DNA of 64,000 nucleotides, taken from contig NZ_WJXZ01000002.1 of assembly GCF_009668025.1 (NCBI RefSeq), positions 628,069 to 692,068 of the forward strand, written 5' to 3'. This document shows, one piece after another, positions 4,730 to 44,020 of the stretch. The translations under genes and the position numbers were made by a program. This DNA is from Larkinella terrae. GTDB lineage: Bacteria > Bacteroidota > Bacteroidia > Cytophagales > Spirosomataceae. The notes below the pieces were generated by a model. That model saw only the letters and a list, made by a program, of their open reading frames with translations, was not told where the DNA came from and made no database searches. Each line of letters begins with the position of its first letter. Positions within the stretch are counted from its first letter, which is position 1.

Positions 4730-5877
4730 GCGTACAATTCTACATCATTCCGATTTATTTCGTCCCCACAAAGAATAACCAATCGTTCGACCACGTTCCG
4801 GAGTTCGCGGACATTACCGGTCCAGGGCAACGACTGGAGATAGTTCATCGCATCCGGCGTAATTTCTTTGGATTGCGCCCCGTATTCCTCCGCAATGTCG
4901 TGGAGAAACTTTTCCGCCAGCAGCGGAATGTCTTCGCGCCGGTCGGCCAGCGGTGGTACGTGGATGCGGATTACGCTCAGCCGGTGGAACAAATCTTCCC
5001 GGAAGGTACCTTCCTGAATCTCTTTGCGCAGGTCTTTGTTGGTTGCCGCAATGACCCGGACGTTGATTTTTATCTCTTTGTCACCGCCCACGCGGGTAAT
5101 TTTACTTTCCTGCAAAGCCCGCAATACCTTGGCCTGAGCCGACAAACTCATGTCGCCGATTTCGTCCAGAAACAGCGTACCGCCATCGGCTTGTTCAAAC
5201 TTGCCGGATCGCCGGGCTGCGGCACCCGTAAAGGCCCCCTTTTCGTGGCCAAACAACTCACTTTCAATTAATTCGCTCGGAATAGCGGCACAGTTGACTT
5301 CGATCAGCGGCATGGCGGCCCGGCTTCCTTTTTCGTGGATCTGTTTGGCAACCATCTCTTTTCCCGACCCGTTGGCGCCTGTAATCAGAACGCGGGCTTC
5401 GGTGGGGGCAACACGATCGATCGTATCCTTCACCCGACGGATCGGGTCGGAATCGCCTACGATCTCGTTGAGCTTGTAGATCCGCCGTTTCAGGGTTTTG
5501 GTTTCCATCACCAGCTTTGCCTTTTCGATGGCGTTGCGAACCGTAACCAGCAGCCGGTTCAGGTCGGGCGGTTTGATAATAAAGTCAAAGGCGCCCCGTT
5601 TGGTGGCTTCTACGGCATTTTCAACATTTCCGTAGGCCGAAATCATGATGAACTGGGTTCCCCGACCGACCTCGGCCGCTTTCAGAAGCAGCTCCAGGCC
5701 GTCCATCTTGGGCATTTTGATGTCACAAAGCGCTACATCATAGCTGTACTGTTTGATCAGTTCCAGCCCTTCTTCACCATCCTTGGCTTCATCAACTTCA
5801 TAGCCTTCATATTCCAGAATATCGCGAAGCGCATCCCGGATACTTTTTTCATCATCAATGATGATTAATCTCGCCAT
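4726..5877 (-). CDS. Sigma-54 response regulator without DNA-binding domain
   Basis: A 383-residue NtrC-class protein. The receiver domain (1-120) has the acidic pair D8/D9, phospho-acceptor D52 in CDIKMPKMDG, and the conserved Lys in IIKPPD. The AAA+ domain has Walker A GANGSGKE (167-174), the sigma-54 contact loop GAFTGA (214-219) and Walker B GGTLFLDEIGD (232-242). The protein ends about 25 residues after NVVERLVIL, so the usual C-terminal Fis-type helix-turn-helix is absent. It should contact sigma-54 holoenzyme, but must act from solution or through a partner. No kinase is adjacent. Confidence 0.93.
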   Translation of the reverse strand: MARLIIIDDEKSIRDALRDILEYEGYEVDEAKDGEEGLELIKQYSYDVALCDIKMPKMDGLELLLKAAEVGRGTQFIMISAYGNVENAVEATKRGAFDFIIKPPDLNRLLVTVRNAIEKAKLVMETKTLKRRIYKLNEIVGDSDPIRRVKDTIDRVAPTEARVLITGANGSGKEMVAKQIHEKGSRAAMPLIEVNCAAIPSELIESELFGHEKGAFTGAAARRSGKFEQADGGTLFLDEIGDMSLSAQAKVLRALQESKITRVGGDKEIKINVRVIAATNKDLRKEIQEGTFREDLFHRLSVIRIHVPPLADRREDIPLLAEKFLHDIAEEYGAQSKEITPDAMNYLQSLPWTGNVRELRNVVERLVILCGDEINRNDVELYA

Positions 5878-6279
5878 AAACCAGTGTTACTTAATCAATA
5901 ATTCCGGTTACATGTCCGGAAAACAACTCATATAAACCTGAATTTTAATGGAAAGTAATAGAAAGACATTTCAATAAGCAAGGTTATGTCTTTTTTTTTA
6001 AATGAATTAGACAAACTTTCATATAAATGTATTTCGGAAGGGGTTTTACGGTAAAAAATGCCTATAGGAGCCAGCAAAAAAATTATACTATAAGAATGAA
6101 TAAAATCACAAAATGAATGGTTTAGTGAAAAATATATAAAAATTGCCTTGTAATATCCTAAAAGTTAGTGCATCTTAGGAAAGTTGATAATTTGGGAGTG
6201 ATTCCGGGTATATTCAATAATATCTTACTCTTTTACCATTTTACTCTTTTACCATCTTTATTTTTTAATCCATCTCTTT
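5878..6279. other. AT-rich upstream region of the SusC gene
   Basis: A 402-base AT-rich spacer between the divergent sigma-54 activator and SusC genes. It contains no convincing ORF. It ends with a 15-base tandem repeat (6225-6255) close to the SusC start. I could not pick a clear -33/-7 promoter. Confidence 0.5.
6225..6255 (+). repeat. 15-base tandem duplication upstream of SusC
   Basis: The sequence TTACTCTTTTACCAT occurs at 6225-6239 and again at 6241-6255, separated by one base. It lies 25-55 bases before the SusC start codon, probably within the mRNA leader. Its role is unknown. Confidence 0.85.
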
Positions 6280-29560: not shown

Positions 29561-30577
29561 ATTCACTTCCGGATTCAGCCGGATGCCGAACTTGTCTTCA
29601 ACGGATTGCTGCACTTTGCTGGCCAAACTAAGGATTTCGGAACCCGTAGCGCCACCGTGGTTAACCAGCACGAGCGCCTGTTTGGAATGAACGCCCGCGT
29701 TACCGACATGCTTGCCCTTCCAGCCGCATTGCTCGATGAGCCAGCCCGCCGGAACTTTCATCGTCAGGTCGCCGGTCGGAAAACCGGGCATGGCTGGATA
29801 CTCGGTTTTCAAGGTTTCAAACTGATCTTTTGAGATCTCCGGGTTTTTGAAGAAACTGCCCGCGTTACCAATCTCGGCCGGATTGGGCAGTTTGCTCCTC
29901 CGGATGCGGATAACGGCATCGCTAATTGCCTTGATACTCAGCTTGTCTTCCGAAATGCCCATCGTCGCCAGCGTTTCGCGGATGGCGCCGTAGTCGATGT
30001 GAAAAACCGGTTGTTTATTCAGGCGAAACGTCACGTTGCTGATGATGTATTGCCCTTTGGCTTCGTGCTTGAAAACGCTTTCGCGGTAGCCAAACCGGCA
30101 TTCGGCGTGGTTAAAAATCCGGGTTTCGCCCGTTCGGATGTCAACCGCTTCCAGGTGATCGAAAACCTGCTCGATTTCCACGCCGTATGCGCCAATGTTC
30201 TGCATCGGTGCCGCACCCGTCGTGCCCGGAATCAGCGATAGATTTTCAATCCCGGCATAGCCATTCTGAACGCAGAACAGCACCAACTGGTGCCAGTTGA
30301 CGCCCGCACCGGCTTTTACAAAAACATGCGATGCATCTTCCCGAAGCACCTCGATTCCCTGAATCGACATTTTAATGACCAGACCCTCAAAATCACGCGT
30401 GAACAACAGGTTGCTTCCTCCGCCCAAAATCAGCTTGGGAACTGCCAGAAATTCAGTTAATTGGAAAAGTGTTTGTAATTGCGCGTCGGTGTCGATTTCA
30501 ACCCAATAGCGGGCTTTCGCGTCGAAGCCAAACGTGTTATAGGATTTCAGCGATACGTGGCTCTGAATATCTAGCAT
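29552..30577 (-). CDS. murB: UDP-N-acetylenolpyruvoylglucosamine reductase
   Basis: A 341-residue FAD enzyme that reduces UDP-GlcNAc-enolpyruvate to UDP-MurNAc, the second committed step of peptidoglycan synthesis. The FAD-binding segment is LGGGSNLLF, with GAAPMQNIGAYGVE and the catalytic-site GNAGSFFKNP; the C-terminus is of type I (E. coli-like). The frame extends 48 codons upstream, but the ATG at 30577 begins the family sequence MLDIQSHVSLKSYNTFG. It is divergent from the SPOR lipoprotein gene. Confidence 0.96.
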   Translation of the reverse strand: MLDIQSHVSLKSYNTFGFDAKARYWVEIDTDAQLQTLFQLTEFLAVPKLILGGGSNLLFTRDFEGLVIKMSIQGIEVLREDASHVFVKAGAGVNWHQLVLFCVQNGYAGIENLSLIPGTTGAAPMQNIGAYGVEIEQVFDHLEAVDIRTGETRIFNHAECRFGYRESVFKHEAKGQYIISNVTFRLNKQPVFHIDYGAIRETLATMGISEDKLSIKAISDAVIRIRRSKLPNPAEIGNAGSFFKNPEISKDQFETLKTEYPAMPGFPTGDLTMKVPAGWLIEQCGWKGKHVGNAGVHSKQALVLVNHGGATGSEILSLASKVQQSVEDKFGIRLNPEVNIV

Positions 30578-30668
30578 GGGTTGGCGTAATAATGCTACCT
30601 CAAAGTAAGTAAAAAGAAGGGAAAACGTTGGTATATCGATAGGATTGCTCAACAAGCTAGCGGGCAGA

Positions 30669-30699
30669 TTGTTGTATAACCAGATTGTTGCTAAATTTG
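30669..30699 (+). promoter_or_regulatory. Promoter of the SPOR lipoprotein gene
   Basis: TTG (30669-30671), a 20-base spacer and TAAATTTG (30692-30699) match the Bacteroidota -33/-7 consensus. Only ten bases separate the -7 box from the ATG at 30710, so the mRNA leader should be very short or absent. Confidence 0.65.
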
Positions 30700-30709
30700 C
30701 AGGCAAGGA

Positions 30710-31309
30710 ATGGAAGCACACATCAATAGAATTCGGCTGGATAACGCGCTTATCCTGGTAGTTTTGGTCGGGCTATCGGGCTGGTTCAGTTCGTGTGCGT
30801 CGTCGAAAAATACCGGTTCCCGTTCGTCTTCATCGGCGGACTACAATACGTACAATTACGACCTGTCGGCCACCCGACCGACTTTCAGCCCGTCGGCACC
30901 CGTAACGACCAAACCGCCCGCAACGGCACCACCAACGCGCCCGGCTCCGGAAAACCGTCGCCCGATGCCGATGGCCGAACCGCTGCACATCAATAAAAAA
31001 CTTGACGCTATTCTGGATACCATTTCCGTCAAAAACCGCTCGATTCGGTACGCTCAGGGCTACCGTATTCAGGTTTACGTTGGCGAAGAACGCGGGGAAA
31101 TGGATCGGGTCAAGCGGTTTACCTACCAGAATTTTCCGGAATTGAATCCCTATACAACCTTTCGCCAGCCAACGTATCGGTTAAAAGTGGGGGATTTTAT
31201 GCGTAGGCTCGATGCGGAGCGGTATCTGGCGCAACTGCGTCAGCAGTTTTCATCGGCAACCCTGCTGCCCGACCGGATCGAAATCCGGCGGAGTCTGTCG
31301 GTTAAATAG
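30710..31309 (+). CDS. SPOR-domain lipoprotein
   Basis: A 199-residue envelope protein. A signal with the lipobox region GWFSSC is followed by a Ser/Thr/Pro-rich linker (about 35-90). A SPOR domain (about 115-195) has YRIQVYVGEERGEMDRVK and the C-terminal DAERYLAQLRQQFSSA. SPOR domains bind denuded peptidoglycan at division sites. It is divergent from murB, which fits a cell-wall role. The exact function is unknown. Confidence 0.83.
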   Translation: MEAHINRIRLDNALILVVLVGLSGWFSSCASSKNTGSRSSSSADYNTYNYDLSATRPTFSPSAPVTTKPPATAPPTRPAPENRRPMPMAEPLHINKKLDAILDTISVKNRSIRYAQGYRIQVYVGEERGEMDRVKRFTYQNFPELNPYTTFRQPTYRLKVGDFMRRLDAERYLAQLRQQFSSATLLPDRIEIRRSLSVK

Positions 31310-31351
31310 TAAAATCGAGGTATCATTTATTCGTTGCAATTGCAAATAATT

Positions 31352-32464
31352 ATGAAAAAAGCACTTATTACCGGAGTAACCGGCCAGGACGGCGCCTATT
31401 TGGCCGAACTACTTTTATCGAAAGGCTACGAAGTCCACGGGATCAAACGCCGGAGTTCGCTGTTCAATACCCAACGAATTGATAATTTATACGAAGATCC
31501 GCACGAAAAAAACGTTCGTTTTAAACTCCATTACGGCGACTTATCCGATTCGACCAACATCATCCGGATTATCCAGGAAGTACAGCCCGACGAAATTTAC
31601 AACCTCGGGGCTATGTCACACGTGCGGGTGAGTTTTGAGGAACCCGAATACACCGCGCATGTCGACGGGATTGGTACGTTGCGGATTCTGGAGGCCGTCC
31701 GTTTGCTCGGATTGACTAAAAAAACCCGGATCTACCAGGCTTCAACTTCTGAATTATACGGCGGTGTGCAGGGCCACGCGCAGTCGGAAACCACGCCGTT
31801 CTATCCCCGCTCGCCGTATGCCGTGGCTAAATTGTACGGTTACTGGATTACGGTCAACTACCGGGAAGCGTACGACATGTATGCCTGCAACGGGATTCTG
31901 TTTAACCACGAATCACCCCTGCGCGGGGAAACGTTTGTAACCCGCAAAATTACGCGTGCCGTGGCCCGAATTGCGCTCGGGTTGCAGGACAAAGTGTTCA
32001 TGGGAAATCTGGATGCCCAGCGCGACTGGGGCCACGCAAAGGATTACGTGGAAGCGATGTGGTTAATGCTGCAGCAGGACACGCCGGAAGACTTCGTGAT
32101 TGCCACCGGCAAAACCACCCACATCCGTGATTTTATCCGGATGGCATTTGCCGAAGTCGGCGTGGAACTGGAATTCAAAGGTGAGGGGGTCAATGAAACC
32201 GGTGTGGTCGCCAAATCGACTCATCCGGACTATCAACTCGCCGTGGGCAGCGAGGTGGTTTGCATCGATGAGCGGTATTTCCGGCCGACGGAAGTAGATC
32301 TGCTGCTCGGTGATCCGACCAAAGCCATGACCAAACTGGGCTGGAAACCCAAATACGACCTGGCAGCCCTGGTGAAAGAAATGGTAGCTGCAGACATCGA
32401 ACTGTTCCAGCGCGATCAATTGCTGGAAAAAAGCGGCCACCGCGTGATGAATTATTTCGAGTAA
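31352..32464 (+). CDS. gmd: GDP-mannose 4,6-dehydratase
   Basis: A 370-residue extended SDR that converts GDP-mannose to GDP-4-keto-6-deoxymannose, the precursor of GDP-fucose and GDP-rhamnose. It has the NADP motif [15 protein letters not shown], the catalytic Thr/Ser region QASTSELYG, and YxxxK in [28 protein letters not shown] is family-specific. The start is the ATG at 31352, six codons into the open frame. The next-step enzyme (fcl or rmd) is not adjacent. Confidence 0.96.
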
Positions 32465-32465
32465 A

Positions 32466-32546
32466 CTTTATCCCTAAATCCCCTGAAGGGGACTTGGACA
32501 AGGTTATACCGGATTCAAAAAGTCCCCTTCAGGGGATTTAGGGGTA
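32466..32546. repeat. Inverted repeat after gmd
   Basis: Arms CCCTAAATCCCCTGAAGGGG and its complement lie two bases after the gmd stop, just ahead of the terminator at 32551. The wording resembles the CCCTAAAGGGG arms at 23385-23525. Confidence 0.8.
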
Positions 32547-32550
32547 AAAC

Positions 32551-32587
32551 AAAAACCGCCCGTTCTGTTGGAACGGGCGGTTTTTTT
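32551..32587. terminator. Terminator between gmd and htrA
   Basis: The stem AAAAACCGCCCGTTC / GAACGGGCGGTTTTT with loop TGTTG ends in seven T. It is usable in both directions between the convergent gmd and HtrA protease genes. Confidence 0.92.
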
Positions 32588-32610
32588 ATTGAACAACAAC
32601 ACACTTTTCG

Positions 32611-34140
32611 TTAAACCGGTACGGCGTAGTAATACATCCGTGAGCTGTTCGGATACATCCCGATCAGCATCAGGCCTTCGCCTTCTTTGGTGGTAGTCAG
32701 TGCGGTTTGCAGGTCTTTCACCGAGCGAACCAGCTTGCCGTTGGCTTTCACAATGATGAAGCCTTCTTCGATATCGGTTTCGGACATTTTACCTTCGCGG
32801 ATTTTTTTCACCCGAACACCGCCATCAACGCCCAGCCGTTTGGCATCCGTTGCGGTCAGTTCTTCGAAATCAGCACCCAGCGAACCCAGGCTGGAGGCAG
32901 AATTCGAGGCAGAAATGTTGTCGCTTTTCTTGATGATATCACGGCCGCCGTTGCGGTTGCGCAGTTCGACGCGGAAATCACGCATATCACCATTGCGGTT
33001 CACCGTCAGGGCAATGACGTCACCCGGACGACGGCGACCGATGATTTCGCGCATCTGAGCGTCCGAATCCACATCCTGTCCTTCCATTTTCACGATCACG
33101 TCACCTTTCTTCAAACCGGCCGTTGCGGAGGCACCACCCGCCACAACTTCGTTGATGTAGATACCACGGCCAATTTTAGAACCCAGTTCCTGCGCTTTCA
33201 GGCTGTTCAGCTCAACCGGGATAATGCCCAGGTAACCGCGTTGTACGTTACCGTATTTTACTAAATCAGCCGATACTTTTTTCACCAGTGAAACCGGTAC
33301 GGCAAAACCATACCCACTGTAGTAACCCGTTGCGGAAGCGATGGCGGAGTTGATACCGACCAGTTCACCACGCAGGTTCACCAGTGCCCCACCGGAGTTA
33401 CCGGGGTTGATGGCGGCATCCGTTTGGATGAAGGCTTCAACCGGCGCTTCGGGTTTGGCTTCGTTCTGATTGATGTTCTGATCCAGAATACCGATCCGGC
33501 GACCTTTGGCACTCACGATACCGGCCGTAACGGTCGATTCCAGATCCAGCGGATAACCTACTGCCAGAACCCATTCGCCGAGTTTCAGCGCGTCGGAATC
33601 ACCAAGGGTGATCGACGGCAGGTTTTTGGCGTTTACCTGAATAACCGCCAGGTCGGTCAGGGGGTCGGTACCGATTACTTTCGCTTTAAAGCTCCGCTTG
33701 TCGGTCAGAATAACTTCCACTTCGTCGGCACCCTGCACCACGTGGTTGTTGGTGACAATGTAGCCGTCCTGGCTAATGATCACCCCTGAACCGGATGCCT
33801 GACCGCGTTGACGTTGCGGAGCGCTGTTACCACCCCGGCCAAATTCGTCACCGAAAAAGTCGCGGAAAATATCCGGGATCTGTTGCTGGCGGACAGTGCG
33901 GGTAATGGTGGTTTTGATATGAACGACCGCCGGAGTGGTGGCTTCGGCAGCATACGTAAAGTCGCCCGGAGCGCTCTGGGGTCCGGTCAGGGCTGCCAAC
34001 CGACCCGTGGGAGCGGGCGTTGGCGCCGATTCGTTGAATATGACATCCTGCTTATTCAGTCCTAAGAAATTATAAGCGGCCAGGGTGGCAAAGCTTGATA
34101 GCAGAGCGATAATCGCTAAAGTTTTCCAGTTGCTTTTCAT
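32611..34140 (-). CDS. htrA: HtrA/DegP-type periplasmic serine protease
   Basis: A 509-residue protease-chaperone. An N-terminal signal or anchor (about 5-25) precedes a trypsin-like domain with the triad His133 (TNNHVV), Asp163 (LTDLAV) and Ser249 (GNSGGAL). Two PDZ domains follow, at about 300-390 and 410-500. It degrades or refolds damaged envelope proteins in the periplasm. The gene is alone and ends at the 32551 terminator. Confidence 0.95.
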   Translation of the reverse strand: MKSNWKTLAIIALLSSFATLAAYNFLGLNKQDVIFNESAPTPAPTGRLAALTGPQSAPGDFTYAAEATTPAVVHIKTTITRTVRQQQIPDIFRDFFGDEFGRGGNSAPQRQRGQASGSGVIISQDGYIVTNNHVVQGADEVEVILTDKRSFKAKVIGTDPLTDLAVIQVNAKNLPSITLGDSDALKLGEWVLAVGYPLDLESTVTAGIVSAKGRRIGILDQNINQNEAKPEAPVEAFIQTDAAINPGNSGGALVNLRGELVGINSAIASATGYYSGYGFAVPVSLVKKVSADLVKYGNVQRGYLGIIPVELNSLKAQELGSKIGRGIYINEVVAGGASATAGLKKGDVIVKMEGQDVDSDAQMREIIGRRRPGDVIALTVNRNGDMRDFRVELRNRNGGRDIIKKSDNISASNSASSLGSLGADFEELTATDAKRLGVDGGVRVKKIREGKMSETDIEEGFIIVKANGKLVRSVKDLQTALTTTKEGEGLMLIGMYPNSSRMYYYAVPV

Positions 34141-34526
34141 GACTTGATTCTAAAATGGGTCGTTTACTGTACTATTGTTGGTACCAGTTCCCCACGATAA
34201 CGAAATCTACTTTCCCAAAAATTCGCTTTTCTCACGCAATTAACAAATTTTAACAGGCGAATGTTAGTGGACTCGATAACACGATCCGGCTAAAGATAAC
34301 CGCTGGAAAAAGCGGTTTTTAGCTACCCGGTTTTAGATCTGAAATCAGGGATATGCCGACAAATGGACAACATCCGTACCAGCCCTACTGTTTACACAAA
34401 TTTATGTCATTATGGCGGGAATGTTTAGCCCTTTTAGAACAAAATATAGTCAGATTGTCACCTGGCTTTCAAAAAAGCCGGATGATGCAGGTCAGACTGA
34501 CAACATTAAAACGAGGATACGGACCG
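34141..34526. other. Intergenic region upstream of htrA
   Basis: A 386-base spacer between the MacB-like permease stop and the htrA start, both genes being on the minus strand. It holds a small hairpin AACCGCT-GGAAAA-AGCGGTT followed by TTT (34298-34320) and, at 34354-34369, TGCCGACAAATGGACA, which shares 11 bases with a dyad upstream of the permease (37303-37318). I found no clear -33/-7 promoter. Confidence 0.45.
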
Positions 34527-37178
34527 TTATTCCGTGCGCAACGATTTGACCGGATCCAGCAGGGCGGCTTTGATCGCCTGATAACTGACCGTCAGCAGTG
34601 TGATCACCAATGCACTCAAACCGGCCACCGCAAACACCCACCACGCCATGTCGGTGCGGTACTGGTACTTTTCGAGCCAGTTAGTCAGAAGATAATACGC
34701 GATGGGGGAGGCAATGCCGAACGAAATGGCCACCAGAACGACGAAATTCTGGGACAGCAGACTCCACAGATTGAAAACCGACGCGCCCAATACCTTGCGC
34801 ACCCCGATCTCTTTAATGCGCTGGCCAGCCACGAACGACGCCAGGCCGAAAAGCCCCAGGCAGCTAATCAGAATAGCTAAACCGGCAAAAATGCCCGCCA
34901 GTTTGCCCACCCGTTCTTCGGCCGCAAACTTGGCGGCATATTCCTGATCGACAAACTTGTACTCGAACGGAACGCCGGTGTTGTATTTTTTGAAAACCTG
35001 CTCAATGTTACTCACTGCCTGACTCGCGCTCATCGCCGGGTTTATTTTCAAGGTAACTAAACCGCTTTGCTCGGTGGATAAGTGAAAAATTGACGGTTGA
35101 ATGGGCGCGTAAGGCGACCGGACAACCATGTCTTTAATGACGCCGATGATTTTATACGGGCGGCCGTCCCAGCGGATAATTTCGCCGACGGGATTCTTGA
35201 AGCCGATGTATTTAGCGGCAGTCTGGTTAATGATAAAGGCCGAAGAATCGGTGGAAAACGCGGGCGAAAAATCCCGACCCGCGACGAACTGCCAGCCGAT
35301 GGTTTTGCCGTAGTCGTGCGATACTTCCACATTCGGAAAATCGACCGAGAGATTCGGATCTTTGCCTTTCCATTCAAAACCGCCGTTGGTTGACCAGACG
35401 TCGGTGGTTGGGCTACCCGACCGGGCCATTTCGGTCACGGTTCCGGACTTTTTCAGTTCGTCCCGAACCACATCGAACTGTTTATGAAAACCGGATGAAA
35501 GCATTTCGACCGTCACCAGGCCGTCGCGGGTATAGCCGATGGGGCGGTTTTTGGCAAACTGAATCTGGCGAAAAACGATGATGGTGCCAATGATCAACGT
35601 AATGGAAACCGTAAACTGGAGCACCACCAGCACCTGACGGGGAATCGTCGCGAAACGCCCGACCCGAAAGGTTCCTTTCAGAACTTTTACCGGCTGGAAC
35701 GACGACAGGTAAAGCGCCGGATAACTGCCCGCAATCAGGCCTGTAAACACACTGAATCCCAGCCCCAGAAGCCAGAAAGCCGGCTGATTCCACGGAACGG
35801 AGATCTGCTTGGCCGCGACCTCGTTGAAGAGCGGCAGAACGAGCTGGACCAGCGCCAGCGACAGCAGAAAACCGAAAGCAACAACCAGCAGCGATTCACT
35901 GAAAAACTGACCGATCAATTGTGTGCGCACCGAGCCAACGGCTTTGCGGATGCCCACTTCTTTAGCCCGTTTTTCGGAACGGGCCGTCGAAAGATTCATG
36001 AAATTGATGCAGGCCAGCAAAAGGACAAAACCGCCGATCAGGCCAAAAAGCCAGACAAATTCAATGCGTCCGCCGGTGCGAATCCCGTTCTTAAAATCCG
36101 AATACAAATGCCACTGACTCATCGGATTCAGAAAAACCGCCGGTTTATACCGCTGCTCTTCTTCACGGATGTTGTCGACTTTGATGTTTTTGATTCTGGC
36201 CGATACTTTGTCAATATCCACATGGTCAGCCAGTTGTACGAAAGCCTGAAAACAGTTGCAACGCCACGGGTTGTCCGTTTTCGTTATCCAGGGCTCTTTG
36301 ATGAGATGCAGCGCCCAGGGAGCCACAAACGTCATTTCGTTGAAACTCGAATTCGCGGGCAGGTCTTCGTAGACGCCTGTCACTTTGACCGACTCATTGT
36401 TATCGAGTTTCATGACCTGACCCAGCGGGTCTGCTTCGCCAAAAAACGATTTGGCAACCGATTCCGAGAGTAAAATGGACGCCGGATCGTTCAGGCCCGC
36501 GCGGGTTCCCCGGAGCATTTTCAGCGTCAGCATGTCGGGTGCCTGCGGTTCGATGAACAGCCCGGTTTTCGAGAAGGTTTTCTCCCCAACGGTCAAAATA
36601 TGACGGCTCATCCAGGATGCCATCATGACGTATTTAAAGTCACTGCCGTAGCTTTTTTTTAGTTCGTCACCAATCGGAGACGGCACCGAAACCTGGGTGC
36701 CAATGTCGCCGTTGTAGGTTTGATGCTGCATGACCTGCGCAATGCGGTCGTAGTTCTGGTGGTATTTGTCGTACGACAGCTCATCATAAATCCACAAACC
36801 GATGAGCATGGCAACCACCATTCCCGTTGCCAGACCCGCGATGTTGATGAACGAATAGACCTTGTTTTTGGCCAGATTCCGAAGGGCGATTTTAAGATAA
36901 TTGCGTAGCATGTCCGTAGTTGCAGGAGTAGGGTATCGACTCGGTTTTCGTTTAATCGCAAAGGGCTTCATCAAACTGAAGATGTCCCGGACGTAGCGCC
37001 AGCGGGCTTTTCGCAGACCGATCAGCGGAATGCGCTGGTAAAACAGTTCGTCCAGATCGCCTTCCAGCTCTTCCACCAGTTCCGGGGCGCAGAAACCGTG
37101 CAACAGGCGTTTGGCCCAGCGGGGCGGTTGCTGTCGGTCGGTTTTAGCCAGGCGGTTTTGATCGTCGGTCCCGTTCAT
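34527..37178 (-). CDS. MacB/FtsX-type ABC permease with prefix domain
   Basis: An 883-residue membrane protein. The first 70 residues are a 'permease prefix' domain (RLLHGFCAPELVEELEGDLD). A membrane helix, a MacB-type periplasmic domain and an FtsX domain follow (GFVLLLACINFMNLSTARSE), and then a second periplasmic domain and a C-terminal FtsX domain (ASFVAGQRIKEIGVRKVLGA). Cytophagales genomes carry many of these large permeases, and their partner ATPase is often encoded elsewhere. The substrate is unknown. A sigma-54-like promoter and tandem dyads precede it. Confidence 0.88.
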   Translation of the reverse strand: MNGTDDQNRLAKTDRQQPPRWAKRLLHGFCAPELVEELEGDLDELFYQRIPLIGLRKARWRYVRDIFSLMKPFAIKRKPSRYPTPATTDMLRNYLKIALRNLAKNKVYSFINIAGLATGMVVAMLIGLWIYDELSYDKYHQNYDRIAQVMQHQTYNGDIGTQVSVPSPIGDELKKSYGSDFKYVMMASWMSRHILTVGEKTFSKTGLFIEPQAPDMLTLKMLRGTRAGLNDPASILLSESVAKSFFGEADPLGQVMKLDNNESVKVTGVYEDLPANSSFNEMTFVAPWALHLIKEPWITKTDNPWRCNCFQAFVQLADHVDIDKVSARIKNIKVDNIREEEQRYKPAVFLNPMSQWHLYSDFKNGIRTGGRIEFVWLFGLIGGFVLLLACINFMNLSTARSEKRAKEVGIRKAVGSVRTQLIGQFFSESLLVVAFGFLLSLALVQLVLPLFNEVAAKQISVPWNQPAFWLLGLGFSVFTGLIAGSYPALYLSSFQPVKVLKGTFRVGRFATIPRQVLVVLQFTVSITLIIGTIIVFRQIQFAKNRPIGYTRDGLVTVEMLSSGFHKQFDVVRDELKKSGTVTEMARSGSPTTDVWSTNGGFEWKGKDPNLSVDFPNVEVSHDYGKTIGWQFVAGRDFSPAFSTDSSAFIINQTAAKYIGFKNPVGEIIRWDGRPYKIIGVIKDMVVRSPYAPIQPSIFHLSTEQSGLVTLKINPAMSASQAVSNIEQVFKKYNTGVPFEYKFVDQEYAAKFAAEERVGKLAGIFAGLAILISCLGLFGLASFVAGQRIKEIGVRKVLGASVFNLWSLLSQNFVVLVAISFGIASPIAYYLLTNWLEKYQYRTDMAWWVFAVAGLSALVITLLTVSYQAIKAALLDPVKSLRTE

Positions 37179-37212
37179 TATCAGGTAGCAGGGTATTAGT
37201 CCTGTAAATGTA

Positions 37213-37230
37213 TAACAAATGCCTTGCCAA
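37213..37230 (-). promoter_or_regulatory. Sigma-54-like -24/-12 promoter
   Basis: The minus strand reads TTGGCAAGGCATTTGTTA. Against TTGGCACG-N4-TTGCW it keeps TTGGCA and TTG at the exact spacing, but lacks the C after TTG. Transcription would begin near 37203, about 25 bases before the permease ATG. Confidence 0.55.
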
Positions 37231-37281
37231 CTTGGAAAAACCGCCTTGAAGCGCGATCTGTACGCGTTTACCGACTGATCC

Positions 37282-37318
37282 TGTCCAGAAACGGACAGCC
37301 GATGTACACAAATGGACA
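37282..37318. promoter_or_regulatory. Tandem dyads, candidate enhancer site
   Basis: TGTCCAGAAACGGACA (37282-37297) is a perfect 5+5 dyad with a six-base centre. TGTACACAAATGGACA (37303-37318) has the same layout with one half-site change. They start exactly 21 bases apart, two helical turns, and lie about 80-115 bases upstream of the predicted start of the permease transcript, as expected for an NtrC-type enhancer. Confidence 0.6.
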
Positions 37319-37359
37319 GCCTGAAAAGAGGAGGAAATAAAGGAAAGTAAAACCGGTGG

Positions 37360-38136
37360 TTAGTTGGAAACCGGTTTCATCTGCAATTGCTCACAGGCTT
37401 TTTCGGCGGCCGATTGTTCGGCTTTTTTCTTGCTGTAGCCGCTGCCCTGCGCAAACGGTTCGTCGTTGACCGTCACCTGCGAAATGAATTCGCGGAAGTG
37501 GTTGTTTCCGCGTTCCGAAATAATAATAAACTCGACTTTTTTGCCTTCGCGCTGCGCCCATTCGATCAGGCGGCTTTTGTAGTTGGCGTTGTTGCTGATC
37601 AGCGCTTCGAGGTCGTAATGCCCGAGCAATTCTTTCAGGATAAACCGGCGGGTAAACCGGAAGCCTTTATCCAGGTAAATAGCTCCAACCAACGCTTCGA
37701 GGGCGTCGCCGTACATCGACGTGCGGGAAGGCACGATGCCCCGGTTGCGGCTGCCGTCGTATTCGATCAGGTTTTCCAGACCGATTTTGCGCGCAATGCC
37801 GTTCAGGGTTTCGCGATTGACGATCCGGGAGCGGATTTCGGTCAGGAAGCCTTCGTCTTTGTACGGGAATTTTTTGAAGAGAAACTCGGCAATCACCATG
37901 CCCAAAACCGCATCACCCAGGTATTCCAGCCGTTCATTGGATTCTTTAAAACCCTTGATGGCTGTTTCTTTCGAAGCCGACGTATGCCGGAACGCAAGCT
38001 GGTACAAACCAACGTTATTTGGCGCTTCGCCAATGATGTGTTCGACGGAGCGCTTAAATTTTTTGCGTTCGCTGTTTCCAAACCGGAAAAAACTGCGAAT
38101 AGGCTCGAAAAAGGTGTCGGTTAAAGCGGCTTGCAC
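37360..38136 (-). CDS. rnc: Ribonuclease III
   Basis: A 258-residue double-stranded-RNA endonuclease for rRNA and mRNA processing. The catalytic domain has the signature NERLEYLGDAVLGMVIAE, and the C-terminal dsRNA-binding domain ends KKKAEQSAAEKACEQL. The start is a GTG at 38136, ten bases after the fabF stop; no in-frame ATG precedes the catalytic region. The order acpP-fabF-rnc is conserved in many bacteria. Confidence 0.96.
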   Translation of the reverse strand: MQAALTDTFFEPIRSFFRFGNSERKKFKRSVEHIIGEAPNNVGLYQLAFRHTSASKETAIKGFKESNERLEYLGDAVLGMVIAEFLFKKFPYKDEGFLTEIRSRIVNRETLNGIARKIGLENLIEYDGSRNRGIVPSRTSMYGDALEALVGAIYLDKGFRFTRRFILKELLGHYDLEALISNNANYKSRLIEWAQREGKKVEFIIISERGNNHFREFISQVTVNDEPFAQGSGYSKKKAEQSAAEKACEQLQMKPVSN

Positions 38137-38145
38137 GCGGCTGTT

Positions 38146-39399
38146 TCAGGACTCAAGTTTGCGAAATATAACAGAAAAATTGTGACCGCCAAAACCGAAT
38201 GTATTGCTCAGGGCAACATTGATGGTGCGTTTCTGAGCTTCGTTAAACGTAAAATTCAGTTCCGGGTTAAATTGTTCGTCGTCGGTAAAGTGATTGATGG
38301 TGGGTGGAACAATACCGTACTTCATCGCCATCAGGCAGGCAATTGCTTCGATGGCTCCGGCAGCACCCAGCAGGTGACCCGTCATGGACTTGGTCGAACT
38401 GATGTTCACCTTGTACGCATGGTCGCCGAAAACCTTCTCAATCGCAACTGCTTCACTAACGTCGCCGAGAGGGGTGGAGGTTCCATGCACATTGATGTAA
38501 TCGATGGCTTCCGGCCCGATCTGGGCATCGTCGAGCGCATCTTTCATGACATTGATGGCACCCAGGCCTTCCGGGTGGGGCGCCGTAATGTGGTAAGCGT
38601 CGGACGACATGCCGCCCCCGATCAGTTCGGCGTAAATTTTGGCACCCCGCGCTTTGGCGTGTTCGTATTCCTCCAGAATAAGAGCCCCGGCACCTTCGCC
38701 CAACACAAAACCGTCGCGGTCTTTGTCGAACGGCCGCGAAGCGGTTTCCGGGGAGTCGTTCCGCTCCGAAAGCGCGCGCAGCGCATTGAAACCGCCCACA
38801 CCGGCTTCGGTTACGGCCGCTTCGGAACCGCCGGAAATGGCGATGTTCAAACGGCCCAGCCGAATAAAGTTGAAGGCATCGATCATGGCGTTGGTGGCCG
38901 AAGCGCAGGCCGAAACCGTCACGTAATTGACACCGTGAAAACCGTAGCGAATCGAGAGCATGCCCGATGCACTGTCGGCAATCATTTTCGGAATGAAGAA
39001 CGGATTATAACGGGGAGAACCATCGCCGGTTGCGTAATTTTTGACTTCGTCTTCAAAGGTTTTCAGACCTCCGATTCCGGAACCCCAGATGACACCGGCT
39101 TTATTTAAATCGAGCTGCGTAAGGTCGAGCCCGGCATCCTTGACGGCTTCGTCGGCTACAATGAGCGCATACTGCGCGAAAGGATCCATCTTACGAGCGT
39201 CCTGCCGAGGAATAAACTGGTTGATATCCAGATTTTTAACTTCGCAGGCGAATTTTGTCCGAAATTTTTCGGCATTAAATTTAGTAATCGGACCGGCGCC
39301 ACTTACACCGGCAGATAAGCCGCTCCAGAACTCTTGTACTGTGTTACCAATCGGCGTAAGAGCGCCCAGGCCGGTGATTACTACTCGTTTAAAAGGCAT
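38146..39399 (-). CDS. fabF: Beta-ketoacyl-ACP synthase II
   Basis: A 417-residue condensing enzyme that elongates acyl-ACP with malonyl-ACP. The nucleophile is Cys165 in VSACASATNA, and the two catalytic His are in NVHGTSTPLGD and KSMTGHLLGAAG. GFGGHN closes the active site. It lies 23 bases after acpP, with rnc next, in a conserved fatty-acid gene block. Confidence 0.97.
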   Translation of the reverse strand: MPFKRVVITGLGALTPIGNTVQEFWSGLSAGVSGAGPITKFNAEKFRTKFACEVKNLDINQFIPRQDARKMDPFAQYALIVADEAVKDAGLDLTQLDLNKAGVIWGSGIGGLKTFEDEVKNYATGDGSPRYNPFFIPKMIADSASGMLSIRYGFHGVNYVTVSACASATNAMIDAFNFIRLGRLNIAISGGSEAAVTEAGVGGFNALRALSERNDSPETASRPFDKDRDGFVLGEGAGALILEEYEHAKARGAKIYAELIGGGMSSDAYHITAPHPEGLGAINVMKDALDDAQIGPEAIDYINVHGTSTPLGDVSEAVAIEKVFGDHAYKVNISSTKSMTGHLLGAAGAIEAIACLMAMKYGIVPPTINHFTDDEQFNPELNFTFNEAQKRTINVALSNTFGFGGHNFSVIFRKLES

Positions 39400-39422
39400 A
39401 GAATGAACTACAAATGAAAAGC

Positions 39423-39659
39423 TTATTTCACATTCTCTTCCAGATACGTGATGGCTTGCCCAACCGTACCGATGTTTTCCGCCTGATCGTCCGGAATAGA
39501 GATGTTAAACTCTTTTTCAAATTCCATAATCAGTTCAACTGTGTCGAGCGAATCAGCGCCCAGATCGTTGGTGAAGCTGGCTTCCGGCGTTACCTCCGAT
39601 TCCTCAACACCCAGTTTTTCAACAATGATTGCTTTTACTTTGTCTGCAATTTCTGACAT
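39423..39659 (-). CDS. acpP: Acyl carrier protein
   Basis: A 78-residue carrier for acyl chains in fatty-acid synthesis. The phosphopantetheine site is Ser37 in [15 protein letters not shown]. The protein is acidic and of standard length. The open frame continues upstream, but the ATG at 39659 begins the family sequence [18 protein letters not shown]. It is first in acpP-fabF-rnc and has a good promoter at 39692-39722. Confidence 0.97.
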
Positions 39660-40061
39660 TTCGGTATGCGTTTGGGGTTCTAAAAACTGTGCAAAGAAAG
39701 AGATTAAAAACAGTATTGTCAAATAATTTTTTCTACCGAAAATCGTTTAAAAGGGCTTGGTTTTTTTTGTAAAAAGACAGATTAACAGCCTATTACAAAA
39801 TAAAATTGTATTTGACAACCGAACCATATTATCCGTAATTGTTCACACAAAAACCGGCCGAATCAGGGTTATTCCATTTCTTCGGAGATAATATCAGGAT
39901 GTCTGACCGACAATAAACGGTTTAATTTTATTGTCGCCAACCCGGGCGGTGAAATAAACCTGCTGAAAACCGCAAAAGTTATTTTGGAGCCCCATTCGGT
40001 AGATTCGGGTCCTTCAAGATAGGTCAATTGTGTAGCTTTGTACGAAAATTTTAAAACGGCT
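39660..40061. other. Divergent spacer, acpP / kdsA
   Basis: A roughly 400-base AT-rich spacer holding the acpP promoter and, at 40033-40040, a perfect -7 box TAGCTTTG for kdsA. A minus-strand frame of 123 codons overlaps kdsA and has no family resemblance. Nothing else is seen. Confidence 0.5.
39692..39722 (-). promoter_or_regulatory. Promoter of acpP-fabF-rnc
   Basis: On the minus strand: TTG (39722-39720), a 20-base spacer, and TTTCTTTG (39699-39692), which differs from TAnnTTTG at one base. It lies 33 bases before the acpP start codon. Confidence 0.6.
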
Positions 40062-40871
40062 GTGAATATTCCCAAATTGAAACATAGCGGTTCCGGTAAC
40101 TTCTTTCTGATTGCCGGGCCATGTGCCATTGAAAACCGCCCAATGGCGCTGGATATTGCCGCAAAACTGGTCGATATCACGAATCGGCTGGAAATTCCGT
40201 TCCTGTTTAAAGGTTCGTATCGCAAGGCAAACCGCACCAAACTGAACTCGTTTACCGGTATTGGTGACGTTGCTGCGCTGGAAATTCTGAAGGAAGTGGG
40301 CGAGACGTTCGACGTTCCGACGGTTACCGATTTCCACGAATCGCACGAAGCCGCAATGGCGGCCCACTACGTAGACGTATTACAAATACCGGCTTTTCTG
40401 TGCCGCCAGACCGATATGCTCACTGCGGCTGCCGAAACCGGTAAGGTTGTCAATATCAAAAAAGGACAATTTATGTCGGGCGATTCGATGGCATTTGCGG
40501 TCGAAAAAGTGAAATCCGTTAACCCCGATGCAGCGGTTTTTCTGACCGACCGGGGCAATTCGTTCGGCTATGGCGACCTGATTGTCGATTACCGCAATCT
40601 GCCGGTGATGCAGGCCCATGGCGTTCCGGTCGTGATGGACTGCACGCACTCGCTGCAACAGCCCAACCAGTCGTCGGGTGTGACGGGCGGCAAACCGGCG
40701 CTGATTGCTACGATTGCCAAAGCCGCCATTGCGGTGGGCGCCGACGGCTTGTTCATCGAAACGCACCCCAATCCGTCGGAAGCGAAATCGGATGGCGCTA
40801 ATATGTTGCCGTTGAATCAGTTGGAAGAATTGCTGGCGAAACTGGTGCGGATCCGGAAAGCAATATCCTGA
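40062..40871 (+). CDS. kdsA: 3-deoxy-D-manno-octulosonate 8-phosphate synthase
   Basis: A 269-residue TIM-barrel aldolase that condenses phosphoenolpyruvate with arabinose-5-phosphate to give KDO-8-phosphate for lipopolysaccharide. Family segments are FFLIAGPCAIEN, FKGSYRKANRTKLNSF, the Asp-rich TVTDFHE, and MDCTHSLQQPNQ; IETHPNP is also present. Lack of a Cys at PCAIEN+1 does not settle the metal class. I chose the GTG at 40062, because the alternative TTG at 40038 is the last three bases of the -7 box TAGCTTTG. Confidence 0.9.
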   Translation: MNIPKLKHSGSGNFFLIAGPCAIENRPMALDIAAKLVDITNRLEIPFLFKGSYRKANRTKLNSFTGIGDVAALEILKEVGETFDVPTVTDFHESHEAAMAAHYVDVLQIPAFLCRQTDMLTAAAETGKVVNIKKGQFMSGDSMAFAVEKVKSVNPDAAVFLTDRGNSFGYGDLIVDYRNLPVMQAHGVPVVMDCTHSLQQPNQSSGVTGGKPALIATIAKAAIAVGADGLFIETHPNPSEAKSDGANMLPLNQLEELLAKLVRIRKAIS

Positions 40872-40929
40872 CGACAATCAGTAGAAACAGTCGCCCGGAC
40901 GCTCTACCACCAAACTATATCTCATAGCC

Positions 40930-41760
40930 ATGCAAACCCGGTACACAACCAACCCCACCGATTTTAAAAACTACGACACCGACCGCATCCGTCGGGATTT
41001 TCTCATCGAAAATCTGTTTCAGCCCGATGCATTTGAGTTCGTTTATTCCCATTACGACCGGATGATTGTGGGCGGAATCATGCCCGTTGGCCGTCCGCAA
41101 ACCTTGCCTACTTACGACGAGCTGAAAGCCGATTTCTTTCTGGAACGGCGCGAGCTGGGAATTATCAACGTCGCCGGTGACGGTACGGTAACCGTTGATG
41201 GCCAGGAATTTAAGCTGGCGAAAAAAGATTGCTTATACGTTGGACTGGGTAGTCGGAATGTGGTTTTTACCAGCGATCAGGCCGACCAGCCTGCCAAATT
41301 TGCCTTGATTTCAACGCCCGCACACCGCGCCTGTCCGACCGCCAGATTAACCTCTGCCGAAGCCTCGCCGGTTGATCTGGGGGCGCAGGAAACCGCTAAC
41401 CAGCGAACGATTTATAAGTACATTCATGCCGACGGTCTGCAAAGCAGCCAGCTGGTCATGGGCTTGACGACACTGAAGCCTGGAAGCATCTGGAATACCA
41501 TGCCGCCCCACGTGCACGACCGCCGGATGGAAGCCTACATTTATTTCGATATTCCTGAGAATCAGCGGGTCTTTCACCTGATGGGTCATCCGCAGGAGAC
41601 TCGTCACCTGGTGGTTGCCAGCGATCAGGCGATTCTGTCGCCACCCTGGTCGATTCATTCGGGTGCCGGAACCACCAATTACTCGTTTATCTGGGCCATG
41701 GCGGGGGAAAATTACACCTTTACCGATATGGATTTTGTCCAATTGACCGCCATTCGGTGA
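40930..41760 (+). CDS. kduI: 4-deoxy-L-threo-5-hexosulose-uronate isomerase
   Basis: A 276-residue cupin enzyme that isomerises 5-keto-4-deoxyuronate in uronate (pectin or glycosaminoglycan) breakdown. The metal-binding His/Glu cluster lies in MPPHVHDRRMEAYIYF, and a final His is in PPWSIHSGAG. Length and ends match the family. No kduD, lyase or transporter gene is adjacent, so the pathway is scattered or partial here. It follows kdsA by 58 bases. Confidence 0.95.
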   Translation: MQTRYTTNPTDFKNYDTDRIRRDFLIENLFQPDAFEFVYSHYDRMIVGGIMPVGRPQTLPTYDELKADFFLERRELGIINVAGDGTVTVDGQEFKLAKKDCLYVGLGSRNVVFTSDQADQPAKFALISTPAHRACPTARLTSAEASPVDLGAQETANQRTIYKYIHADGLQSSQLVMGLTTLKPGSIWNTMPPHVHDRRMEAYIYFDIPENQRVFHLMGHPQETRHLVVASDQAILSPPWSIHSGAGTTNYSFIWAMAGENYTFTDMDFVQLTAIR

Positions 41761-41940
41761 AAGGGTTCGCTGAGGCAGCTGCGTGTTTTAGTTAGAATAG
41801 AAGAGTGATAGAGATTTAATTTGTATTTAATAATAAAGTTGATTGAACGGGAAAGCCTGATTATCAGCTAGTAGAGTGTTGTTCACTTAACATATTCGTC
41901 GGGTCCGCATGGTGCTGTTATAAAAATGTTACCAGATACA

Positions 41941-41963
41941 GTTACCTTTGATGGTTACCTTTG
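41941..41963 (+). repeat. Duplicated -7-like sequence
   Basis: GTTACCTTTG occurs at 41941-41950 and 41954-41963, so two TACCTTTG boxes sit 13 bases apart just upstream of the PhyH gene start at 41988. Neither has a TTG at the usual -33 distance. Confidence 0.6.
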
Positions 41964-41987
41964 CATGTTATTTCGTCACCTGAAACT

Positions 41988-43010
41988 ATGTCCATCGTAA
42001 ACAAAGCCAGGCAGGCCTATCACAAATTGTTTCCTGCCCCTGTCCTAAAAGATTTTCCAAAAGAGAATTTGCCCTGGATTGACCAGAAAAATCCGGACAT
42101 TGAAGGATTTGTGAAGCAATTCCCGAAAGCCCTTCAATTACCTTATGATCTGACCGAAAAACTCCATTTTTGGAAGGAAAACGGGTATGTCATTCTGGAG
42201 CAGGTTATTTCGGATGATCTGATCGATGCCTACCTTGCCGATGTGCAGGAGCTGATTGAAAAGCACAAAGAATACGACATTACGATTCGGATCGACCGGC
42301 CCGAGTATGTCAAGCATCCGGTGATGAAAGTTCGGGATGTGCCGCGCGAAATCATTGAAGGACAGTATATTAAAGTAATGGACTTCCACAATGCATCGGT
42401 CGCTGGCAAGAAACTAATGCTGCACAAGGCCATCGTGTCTTTTCTGGAGGCCATCTTTAATGAGAAAGTCGTGGCCATGCAAAGCCTGACTTTCCTGTAT
42501 GGTTCGCAGCAGGAAACACACCAGGATTTTCCCTATGTTGTTCCGCAGGTTCCCAGCCACCTGGCGGCAGCCTGGATTGCCCTGGAAGATGTGAAACCCG
42601 GATCGGGCGAACTGCATTATTACGTCGGTTCCCACAAAATCCAGAAGTTTAACTGGGGGAATGGTATTTTTTTCAATGCAGAATCGACCAAAAATCCGAC
42701 GGATTTCGGTAAATACCTGAGTGCGGAATGCGAACGTCTGGGTCTGGAGAAAAAGACGCTTTTAATAAAGAAAGGAGATGTGCTGATCTGGCATGCGGCT
42801 CTGGCCCACGGTGGTGAACCGATTCTGGATGATAATCTGACCCGTAAATCCTACGTCTGCCACTATTCGTCGGCGCTGGGTTATTTCCGTCATCGTCACG
42901 ATCTCGTTAACGAACCCATCCGGATCAACATGAACGGTGCCGATGTGTTTGCTGACCCCAAATTGACCTCTTACGAAGATTCGTTTAAACGCGGGGTGAA
43001 CATTAATTAA
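41988..43010 (+). CDS. Phytanoyl-CoA dioxygenase-family protein
   Basis: A 340-residue Fe(II)/2-oxoglutarate oxygenase. The iron ligands should be His and Asp in QETHQDFPY and the distal His in WHAALAHGGEPI, with Arg in NLTRKSYVCHY binding 2-oxoglutarate. The segment WIALEDVKPGSGELHYYVGSH is typical of PhyH. The substrate is unknown; bacterial members act on lipids and on small natural products. The ATG at 41988 is chosen over a TTG nine codons upstream. It stands alone with its own terminator. Confidence 0.85.
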   Translation: MSIVNKARQAYHKLFPAPVLKDFPKENLPWIDQKNPDIEGFVKQFPKALQLPYDLTEKLHFWKENGYVILEQVISDDLIDAYLADVQELIEKHKEYDITIRIDRPEYVKHPVMKVRDVPREIIEGQYIKVMDFHNASVAGKKLMLHKAIVSFLEAIFNEKVVAMQSLTFLYGSQQETHQDFPYVVPQVPSHLAAAWIALEDVKPGSGELHYYVGSHKIQKFNWGNGIFFNAESTKNPTDFGKYLSAECERLGLEKKTLLIKKGDVLIWHAALAHGGEPILDDNLTRKSYVCHYSSALGYFRHRHDLVNEPIRINMNGADVFADPKLTSYEDSFKRGVNIN

Positions 43011-43032
43011 CCGTTCACGCAGCCGGTTTTAT

Positions 43033-43065
43033 AAAAAAATGCCCGCCAATCCGGCGGGCATTTTT
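43033..43065. terminator. Terminator after the PhyH gene
   Basis: The stem AATGCCCGCC / GGCGGGCATT with loop AATCC is flanked by A and T runs, so it works in both directions between two convergent genes. Confidence 0.92.
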
Positions 43066-43103
43066 CAAATCTACCAATCTCTATTATAACTTCATGAAGT
43101 TCG

Positions 43104-43859
43104 TTAGTTAGCGCTCTTGATCGAGCTGGCACCGGACGTATTGGAGCGAATGGACGCCGAACCCCGGTAAGTCAGGCTGCTGGCTCCGCTGGCTTCGGCA
43201 TCGAGCCGGTCGGTGACGTTCATGCGGGCGCTGCTGGCTCCTGATAAGTCTACGGTGGCATTCGCTACTTTCAAATCATAGGCTTTCAGCGTCGTTGCCC
43301 CCGAAACTTCCCCTTCCAGCCGCTTGGCCTGGCCGGTCAGTGTCACGTTCGATGCGCCGGAAAGATCGACCATCACCCGTTCGGCGTCGACTTCAATGGT
43401 CGAAGTCGATGCGCCGGAAATATCGACGCCGAGTTCCTTGAGGTTCCGGAAACCGGTTACATCGGAACGGGAAGCACCCGAAAAAGAAACACTTTTCAGA
43501 TCCGGCATGGTTACGTTGACCGTCACTCGTTGCCGGTTACGGTTCCAGCCATTTTTATCTTTATACCGAATCTGTAATTTATTGCTGATCACTTTGGCTT
43601 CCAGATCGTCCAGGTCGGAACTACGCCCCGAAGCGGTCACTTTATAACCACTTCCGCGCGAAACGTGAATGGTGAAGGCGCTGCCCAGATCGAGCCGGTT
43701 GAAGTCGCTGACGTTGAAAGTACGGGTTTCGTCCTGCACACTCAGGTTACTCATAATTTCCATCAACTGGCTTCCCGAAGGACTGATGGCGGCAACTGAT
43801 AAAACCGCCACGGATAGCACAAATGGCGTCAATAAGGTGAGGGCAAATGGCCTTTTCAT
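43104..43859 (-). CDS. GIN-domain (DUF2807) exported protein
   Basis: A 251-residue exported protein. The signal peptide (MKRPFALTLLTPFVLSVAV) is followed by a GIN/DUF2807 beta-helix with repeated SGAS steps (VSFSGASRSDV, VDISGASTST, VDLSGASNV, VSGATTL and others). It is the short partner of the larger PspC-GIN gene upstream. The domain was named from putative adhesin heads, but no function is proven. The ATG at 43859 precedes the signal peptide. Confidence 0.85.
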   Translation of the reverse strand: MKRPFALTLLTPFVLSVAVLSVAAISPSGSQLMEIMSNLSVQDETRTFNVSDFNRLDLGSAFTIHVSRGSGYKVTASGRSSDLDDLEAKVISNKLQIRYKDKNGWNRNRQRVTVNVTMPDLKSVSFSGASRSDVTGFRNLKELGVDISGASTSTIEVDAERVMVDLSGASNVTLTGQAKRLEGEVSGATTLKAYDLKVANATVDLSGASSARMNVTDRLDAEASGASSLTYRGSASIRSNTSGASSIKSAN

Positions 43860-43938
43860 ATGCAGATGTTTTGAAGGATTTGCGGTAAAGATGCAACGAA
43901 TCTCCAAAACGTTGCACCCTCACCGCGTACCCACGGAG

Positions 43939-43992
43939 TTTAGTCCGTGATTTTATTCAATCAGGTTAGTGGTAAGGATCTTACGGACTAAA
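43939..43992. repeat. Short inverted repeat between GIN genes
   Basis: TTTAGTCCGT (43939-43948) and its exact complement ACGGACTAAA (43983-43992) face each other across 34 bases in the spacer between the two GIN genes. Confidence 0.7.
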
Positions 43993-44020
43993 GCGGCCGC
44001 GGCCGTCCGACCGAAGGTGC

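Follow-up and report, generated by a model that had tools for sequence, protein, structure and literature searches.

A tandem pair of TGTCC-N6-GGACA dyads and a −24/−12 promoter site, which together are a repeated cis-element, stand upstream of a large MacB/FtsX-type permease gene in Larkinella terrae. The comparisons described below make it very likely that this region is an enhancer with a sigma-54 promoter that switches on the permease and is worked by the NtrC-type response regulator encoded at C6:230751-232148. The dyad pair is probably the repeated switch of this one two-component regulator and RpoN, placed before many permease genes of L. terrae and related bacteria.

In the window (the whole 64,000-nucleotide stretch of DNA analyzed), the elements follow one another on the minus strand in the order ribonuclease III stop codon, distal dyad, proximal dyad, 51 bases, TTGGCAAGGCATTTGTT, and permease ATG (Table 1). 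Both dyads reported in the preliminary description of this locus, TGTCCAGAAACGGACA at 37282-37297 and TGTACACAAATGGACA at 37303-37318, are present with starts exactly 21 bases apart, and the promoter-like site given there, TTGGCAAGGCATTTGTTA, is the minus strand from 37230 to 37213, containing TTGGCA-N6-TTG (37216-37230) at 51 bases from the near dyad. The C after the −12 TTG is missing, as had been remarked, and the window reads GT at positions −13/−12. No Rfam family was detected at the gathering score in window positions 30000-45000, and no PadR gene lies between promoter and permease at this locus.

Table 1. Elements and genes at the permease locus of the window
Feature	Position	Strand	Remarks
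Distal enhancer dyad (candidate)	37303..37318	-	TGTCCATTTGTGTACA in transcription sense; 1 mismatch to TGTCC-N6-GGACA; predicted centre ~−108
Proximal enhancer dyad (candidate)	37282..37297	-	TGTCCGTTTCTGGACA; perfect match; predicted centre ~−87
Sigma-54-type promoter	37214..37230	-	TTGGCAAGGCATTTGTT; GG (−25/−24) at 37228-37227; G (−13) at 37216; T replaces C at −12
Transcription start (A), predicted	37203	-	counted from the −13 G; ~25 nt before the start codon
MacB/FtsX-type permease, duplicated, 883 aa	34527..37178	-	ATG at 37178
Ribonuclease III gene (rnc)	37360..38136	-	upstream neighbour, outside the switch

The window permease contains two MacB_PCD and two FtsX matches and resembles the ADOP and DarB models with scores below their cut-offs. 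ADOP stands for acidobacterial duplicated orphan permease. The ADOP (TIGR03434) and associated PadR (TIGR03433) models describe a similar arrangement, namely a duplicated permease without an ATPase domain, present in many copies and with PadR neighbours. In contrast to these models, the body of the window permease scored 290 bits against the curated ADOP cut-off of 622.3, one tested PadR protein scored 33.6 against 101.8, and the proteins form a Bacteroidota branch with permease prefix domain 2 (NF038404), for which the window permease scored 87.5 bits against a curated cut-off of 35.

We assessed the individual elements and their combination against chance. With up to two mismatches, the single dyad was not enriched in the window (14 matches versus 26 expected) and occurred 2036 times in the genome compared to 2378 times for the reversed pattern, while 168 loose TTGGCA-N6-TTGCA matches in the window, with 196 expected, correspond to chance level. 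Since they are at or below chance, single dyads and single loose −24/−12 matches were rejected as evidence. Dyad pairs 21 bp apart with up to three mismatches were found at 17 places in the 7.85-Mb genome, and the reversed control gave 0. The tighter promoter pattern TTGGCA-N4-ATTTG occurred 23 times genome-wide (10 times when reversed), and 13 of these 23 sites stand behind a dyad pair by hand comparison. Dyad spacing is 21-23 bp in the host genome and 20 bp in the Dyadobacter loci.

Among 291 genomes of the order, hand-counted, at least one pair was present in 81 and a reversed match in 26; at least three pairs (up to 21) were present in 32 genomes, and the reversed control never exceeded two. 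The pair-rich genomes belong to families f1, f5, and f17 and one genus of f9. Prefix-type permeases were found in 28 of the 32 genomes with at least three pairs, with no match in the other four, and ten genomes of families f18 and f19 carry from 10 to at least 20 prefix-type permeases each and no TGTCC pair. At the level of the class, a pair was found in 14 and the reversed pattern in 22 of 247 genomes (also counted by hand), so that pairs are not enriched in number outside the order. Extension of the pair pattern to the whole class was rejected because fewer genomes matched than in the reversed control, and only some of the hit positions there are informative.

The promoter architecture was evaluated on 65 oriented promoters from four families, 28 from the host genome and 37 from other genomes. 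The promoter script returned 30 host pairs, from which C6:360633 and C19:337669 were excluded as having no called lead; C19:336664 was retained though oriented to the wrong gene and is the sole row at +67. Three of the 40 out-of-family sites (L153, L160, and L165) had no permease, PadR, or ATPase match and were also excluded. The best −24/−12 score reached at least 19 in 58 of the 65 promoters and in 5 of the 65 regions when reversed. GG at −25/−24 and, 12 bases away, G at −13 are each found in 64 of the 65 promoters, including the window site; selection of the site by score accounts for part of this frequency. The −24/−12 site lies 50-54 bp from the proximal dyad in 22 promoters and 61-67 bp in 40; three lie elsewhere and none at 55-60 bp, and the two distance classes are thus approximately one helical turn apart. 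At a period of 10.5 bp the phase was concentrated (R = 0.76; none of 20000 uniform draws was as high), a draw-based figure that overstates the effect, since related promoters do not count as independent cases; the stronger argument is the occurrence of two separate distance classes in several families. The two dyads lie upstream on one helix face and in phase with the promoter, the layout expected for the enhancer of an NtrC-type activator. The proximal dyad is the better conserved (0.43 mismatches on average over the 65 promoters, compared to 1.29 for the distal dyad), and the same trend is seen in the window. Shuffles used in the promoter, 30-locus regulator, and half-site scans preserve base composition only.

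The base following TTG over the 65 promoters is T in 28, A in 18, C in 10, and G in 9; the window site lacks the GC doublet at −13/−12, and C at −12 is present in only 10 of 65. The canonical YTGGCAY-N5-TTGCW pattern showed no enrichment genome-wide (7 versus 9 reversed). As TTGCW is unenriched, a specific link between the missing −12 C and targets of activators with a GAFTDA loop (see below) is unsupported. The upstream region of groES, read by eye, contains a CTGGCACAATAAGTGA stretch without the C, and the missing C may be characteristic of sigma-54 in this lineage. In the ATTTG class (33 promoters), a T-run directly precedes the −24 element, and a conserved AactAAT follows the start of this element by approximately 33 bases, within the predicted leader. 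Only 4 of 65 promoters had a TGATnATCA-like repeat in the interval from dyads to promoter, and the repeat was dropped.

The L. terrae genome contains 74 matches to the window permease at E ≤ 1e-10. Searched for across the genome, as the preliminary description had proposed, dyad pairs recur, often before permease operons: with up to four mismatches, a pair was found at 25 of the 46 script-called permease or PadR transcription-unit leads, and two more pair-bearing units (C3:89958 and C6:360633) were found by hand behind miscalled starts. Dyads are lacking at 19 of the 46 called leads, including some doubtful ones; because some called leads are not real (for example, a permease following an ATPase gene), the true dyad-bearing fraction is uncertain. 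No pair was found upstream of 40 operon-internal rows (39 distinct genes, one counted twice) or upstream of 136 control genes from the window and six other stretches. The earlier proposal that a sigma-54 activator switches the large permeases of Cytophagales is largely supported in motif, phasing, and gene association, but not in full breadth, given the 19 leads and some permease-rich relatives without dyads.

In families f5, f17, and f9, a permease, PadR, or ATPase gene lies downstream of 37 of 40 pairs, and for 35 pairs on one side only. These 40 sites were drawn from at least 49 listed with up to two mismatches outside f1, leaving out six sites of genome G024, two of G017, and one of G228; L170 and L184 have a panel match on both sides, and in L162, L166, and L168 the match is more than 1 kb away. 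Another 20 sites of the order, mostly with three mismatches, come from pair-poor genomes that, where listed, lie outside f1; a panel gene was nearby in 4 and none was within ~1.5 kb in 16, which is the outcome to be expected if many single weak pairs are due to chance.

Targets other than permeases include a MacA gene, ATPase genes, and a few small secreted proteins. Pairs with good −24/−12 sites precede non-permease genes, mostly for small secreted proteins, in loci L035, L038, L039, and L040; one of these proteins is near DUF3244, just under its cut-off. A 152-kb region of the host genome (G000 C6:234947-386910; L054, L066-L073) holds approximately 43 MacB/FtsX-type permease genes on one strand, as 45 ORFs with two genes split, some separated by small genes on the opposite strand, and is followed at 387-392 kb by a second ATPase-TolC-like-MacA set.

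An ordinary −33/−7 promoter of Bacteroidota, with the dyads as repressor or activator operators for the primary sigma factor, for example for an operon-encoded PadR, is an improbable explanation of these regions. PadR operators are TGT/ACA-like dyads. A PadR gene lies between promoter and permease at several targets, the promoters contain TTTG, and a subset has ACTAAT approximately 33 bases after the site start. However, TAnnTTTG, described as the −7 box of the primary sigma factor (PMC9723704), occurs downstream of the −24/−12 site only at shuffle level, and a −33/−7 promoter is also at odds with the two helical phases of spacing and the near-constant GG and −13 G. Dyads are also found in front of MacA genes, ATPase genes, and permeases that lack a PadR, they accompany a sigma-54-type regulator across genera, and distal dyads near −108 would be far for a repressor.

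The genome has one match to rpoN and eight strong Sigma54_activat genes. A perfect dyad pair lies between one of these, the response regulator gene C6:230751-232148 (L054:8752-10149), and a divergent MacA gene. The regulator has a receiver-AAA+-Fis-type HTH (HTH_8) architecture, with PF00072, PF00158, and PF02954 all above cut-offs, and is adjoined by a kinase gene (C6:228821-230149), an ATPase gene, and the permease array. Among the best 30 regulator loci of the order (the host and 29 relatives, many from few genera), the pair was found between the genes in all 15 with a divergent MacA and in none of the 15 without it, at a shuffle rate of 8/600. In 80 regulator loci from named genomes, of which the nearest is that of Larkinella arboricola with 91% identity over the regulator, a pair was present in 44 and the reversed control in 1. 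Genome G223, with 12 pairs, contains the regulator (68% identical) split over contig ends, and in the pair-bearing f1 genomes G223, G207, and G251 the regulator is in pieces with 55-69% identity. Of the 13 pairs inspected outside the order, this regulator flanks four, a MacA gene follows two, and an ATPase gene follows one; six have no panel gene.

It is similarly unlikely that one of the genome's seven other activators acts on these enhancers and the sigma-54 promoter. The number of candidates, the variant GAFTDA loop of the flanking regulator, and the presence of its family in many genomes without TGTCC pairs would fit such an assignment, whereas in many genera the pairs adjoin the gene of this regulator, and the operator is different where the regulator sequence is. 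Moreover, 17-kb stretches around six of the other activators contain no dyad pair, and because no window gene except the permease has an upstream pair, the seventh is covered as well. A paralogue at C6:910 kb has another repeat, CGCACAACCCGTGCG, near its MacA gene. The window itself encodes, at 4729-5886 on the minus strand, a 386-codon open frame with receiver and sigma-54 activator domains and a GAFTGA loop, in which no C-terminal HTH was seen in the alignment.

The sigma-54 contact loop of the regulator reads GAFTDA or GSFTDA in 36 of 36 loci; it was readable in 78 of the 80 loci, as GAFTDA in 71, GAYTDA in 6, and GSFTDA in 1. Apart from one paralogue, the remaining activators encoded in the genome carry GAFTGA or GSFTGA, as does E. 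coli GlrR. GAFTDA is listed among the variants that would maintain activity, and a GAFTDA regulator with target operons, DVU2106, is described in the same article (PMC4641369); sigma-54 was not recovered in a pull-down with one GAFTDA protein in another study, where the matter was left open (PMC10714721). A paralogous GAFTDA response regulator is encoded at C6:910-918 kb (L059:8260-9642) near a MacA/TolC-like/permease set, and its nearby MacA gene has the site CTGGCACACCATTTGAA with the different repeat before a −24/−12-like site (L059 15830-16000); this paralogue and its own repeat probably form a sister regulon.

Regulator and operator sequences vary in parallel. When the regulator is 62-91% identical to that of the host (L240-L280), the pair was found in 31 of 32 loci with a divergent MacA, compared to 3 of 25 such loci when it is 51-59% identical (L281-L319), with the division by identity made by hand. 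We also conducted an unbiased scan of all 5-base half-sites with spacers of 4-10 bases. In the 62-91% set the highest rank went to TGTCC-N6 (31 of 32 regions), on a par with a register-shifted form of this dyad, and for the 51-53% identical regulators the scan gave TGTAC-N7-GTACA in 14 of 17 loci (L302-L319 comprises 18 loci, of which L310 was excluded); the best score in 10 shuffles of each set was 2-5. In L302-L319 (Mucilaginibacter, Hymenobacter, and others), the interval separating MacA from the orthologous regulator contains TGTAC-N7-GTACA dyads in tandem, mostly 22 bp apart. A different operator thus accompanies a different regulator sequence, suggesting that the two have changed together. 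That the pattern merely reflects chance or shared ancestry, with promoters copied along with the duplicated permeases and conservation uninformative on function, is very improbable: the permeases are paralogues, often in tandem, but the sequences between the motifs differ, two distances keep the same phase, unrelated genes (MacA, small secreted proteins, and ATPase genes) are also among the targets, and the link between pair and regulator holds across families.

The switch by the C6:230751-232148 regulator and RpoN would operate as follows, starting from motifs, phasing, gene associations, an rpoN gene, regulator domains, and operator differences accompanying regulator differences that are evident in the DNA itself. 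The phosphorylated regulator would bind the tandem dyads, ~87 and ~108 bp upstream of the start, as two dimers, assemble an ATPase ring there, and reach the closed complex of RpoN-RNA polymerase at −24/−12. The distance of whole helical turns between dyads and promoter fits a contact over short, stiff DNA. The MacA-ATPase-permease operon divergent from the regulator gene and numerous permease units in other parts of the genome may be under its control as well, in which case a single envelope or export signal would induce the whole set. Within this scheme, binding by the regulator and its phosphorylation, dependence on RpoN, the inducing signal, and the substrate transported are putative.

The predicted system shares with the NtrC, ZraR, and GlrR systems a response regulator with AAA+ and Fis-type HTH domains, palindromes 80-150 bp upstream, and a −24/−12 promoter, in the general NtrC-type layout (PMC4987338). 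It differs from NtrC-type systems in the TGTCC-N6-GGACA sequence, dyads 20-23 bp apart, the GAFTDA loop, a −12 C that is mostly absent, and targets that are mostly export-type permeases. A similar half-site is that of enterobacterial GlrR (QseF), also a two-component sigma-54 activator, with TGTC-N10-GACA (PMC4987338, Table 1) versus TGTC-N8-GACA here; GlrR differs in its HTH in the alignment, in its GAFTGA loop, and in its targets, which are listed as small RNAs in PMC4987338. According to a prediction in a 2025 survey (PMC12316311), COG0577/FtsX-type permeases of Bacteroidia are under sigma-54 control, which the survey presents as the first evidence of such a link; its excerpted text provides promoter matrices and names no enhancer or activator for these permeases. 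As that survey is described as keeping only GAFTGA-containing activators, a GAFTDA regulator would have been left out. In the same phylum, motif SM4 of Flavobacterium psychrophilum represents −24/−12 promoters, and its selected targets in the excerpts of PMC9723704 are chaperones, gliding, and exported proteins, with no permease among them. Among the matches listed in searches of titles and abstract openings of the open-access literature, we recognized no paper on this enhancer, activator, or permease array, and nothing on point was found in open-access work on ADOP and Spirosoma permeases.

For a sigma-54 regulon of Larkinella-like Cytophagales and of Chitinophaga, the analysis supplies the sequence of an enhancer, a likely activator, and a list of targets; earlier sigma-54 papers on the phylum give promoters, and no enhancer sequence was found in the excerpts of them consulted. 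In a wider proposal, which we offer tentatively and regard as somewhat doubtful, a GAFTDA-subclass activator would be the master switch of a modular exporter in which one MacA-ATPase module serves dozens of ATPase-less, interchangeable permeases, with regulator and operator (TGTCC-N6-GGACA and TGTAC-N7-GTACA) drifting together across Bacteroidota and the permease regulon growing in some lineages only. The sister operator TGTAC-N7-GTACA provides a natural series for joint change of regulator and site. The question of whether GAFTDA activators work with sigma-54 becomes testable, as does the purpose of very large orphan-permease families, for which a shared switch would mean a shared signal.
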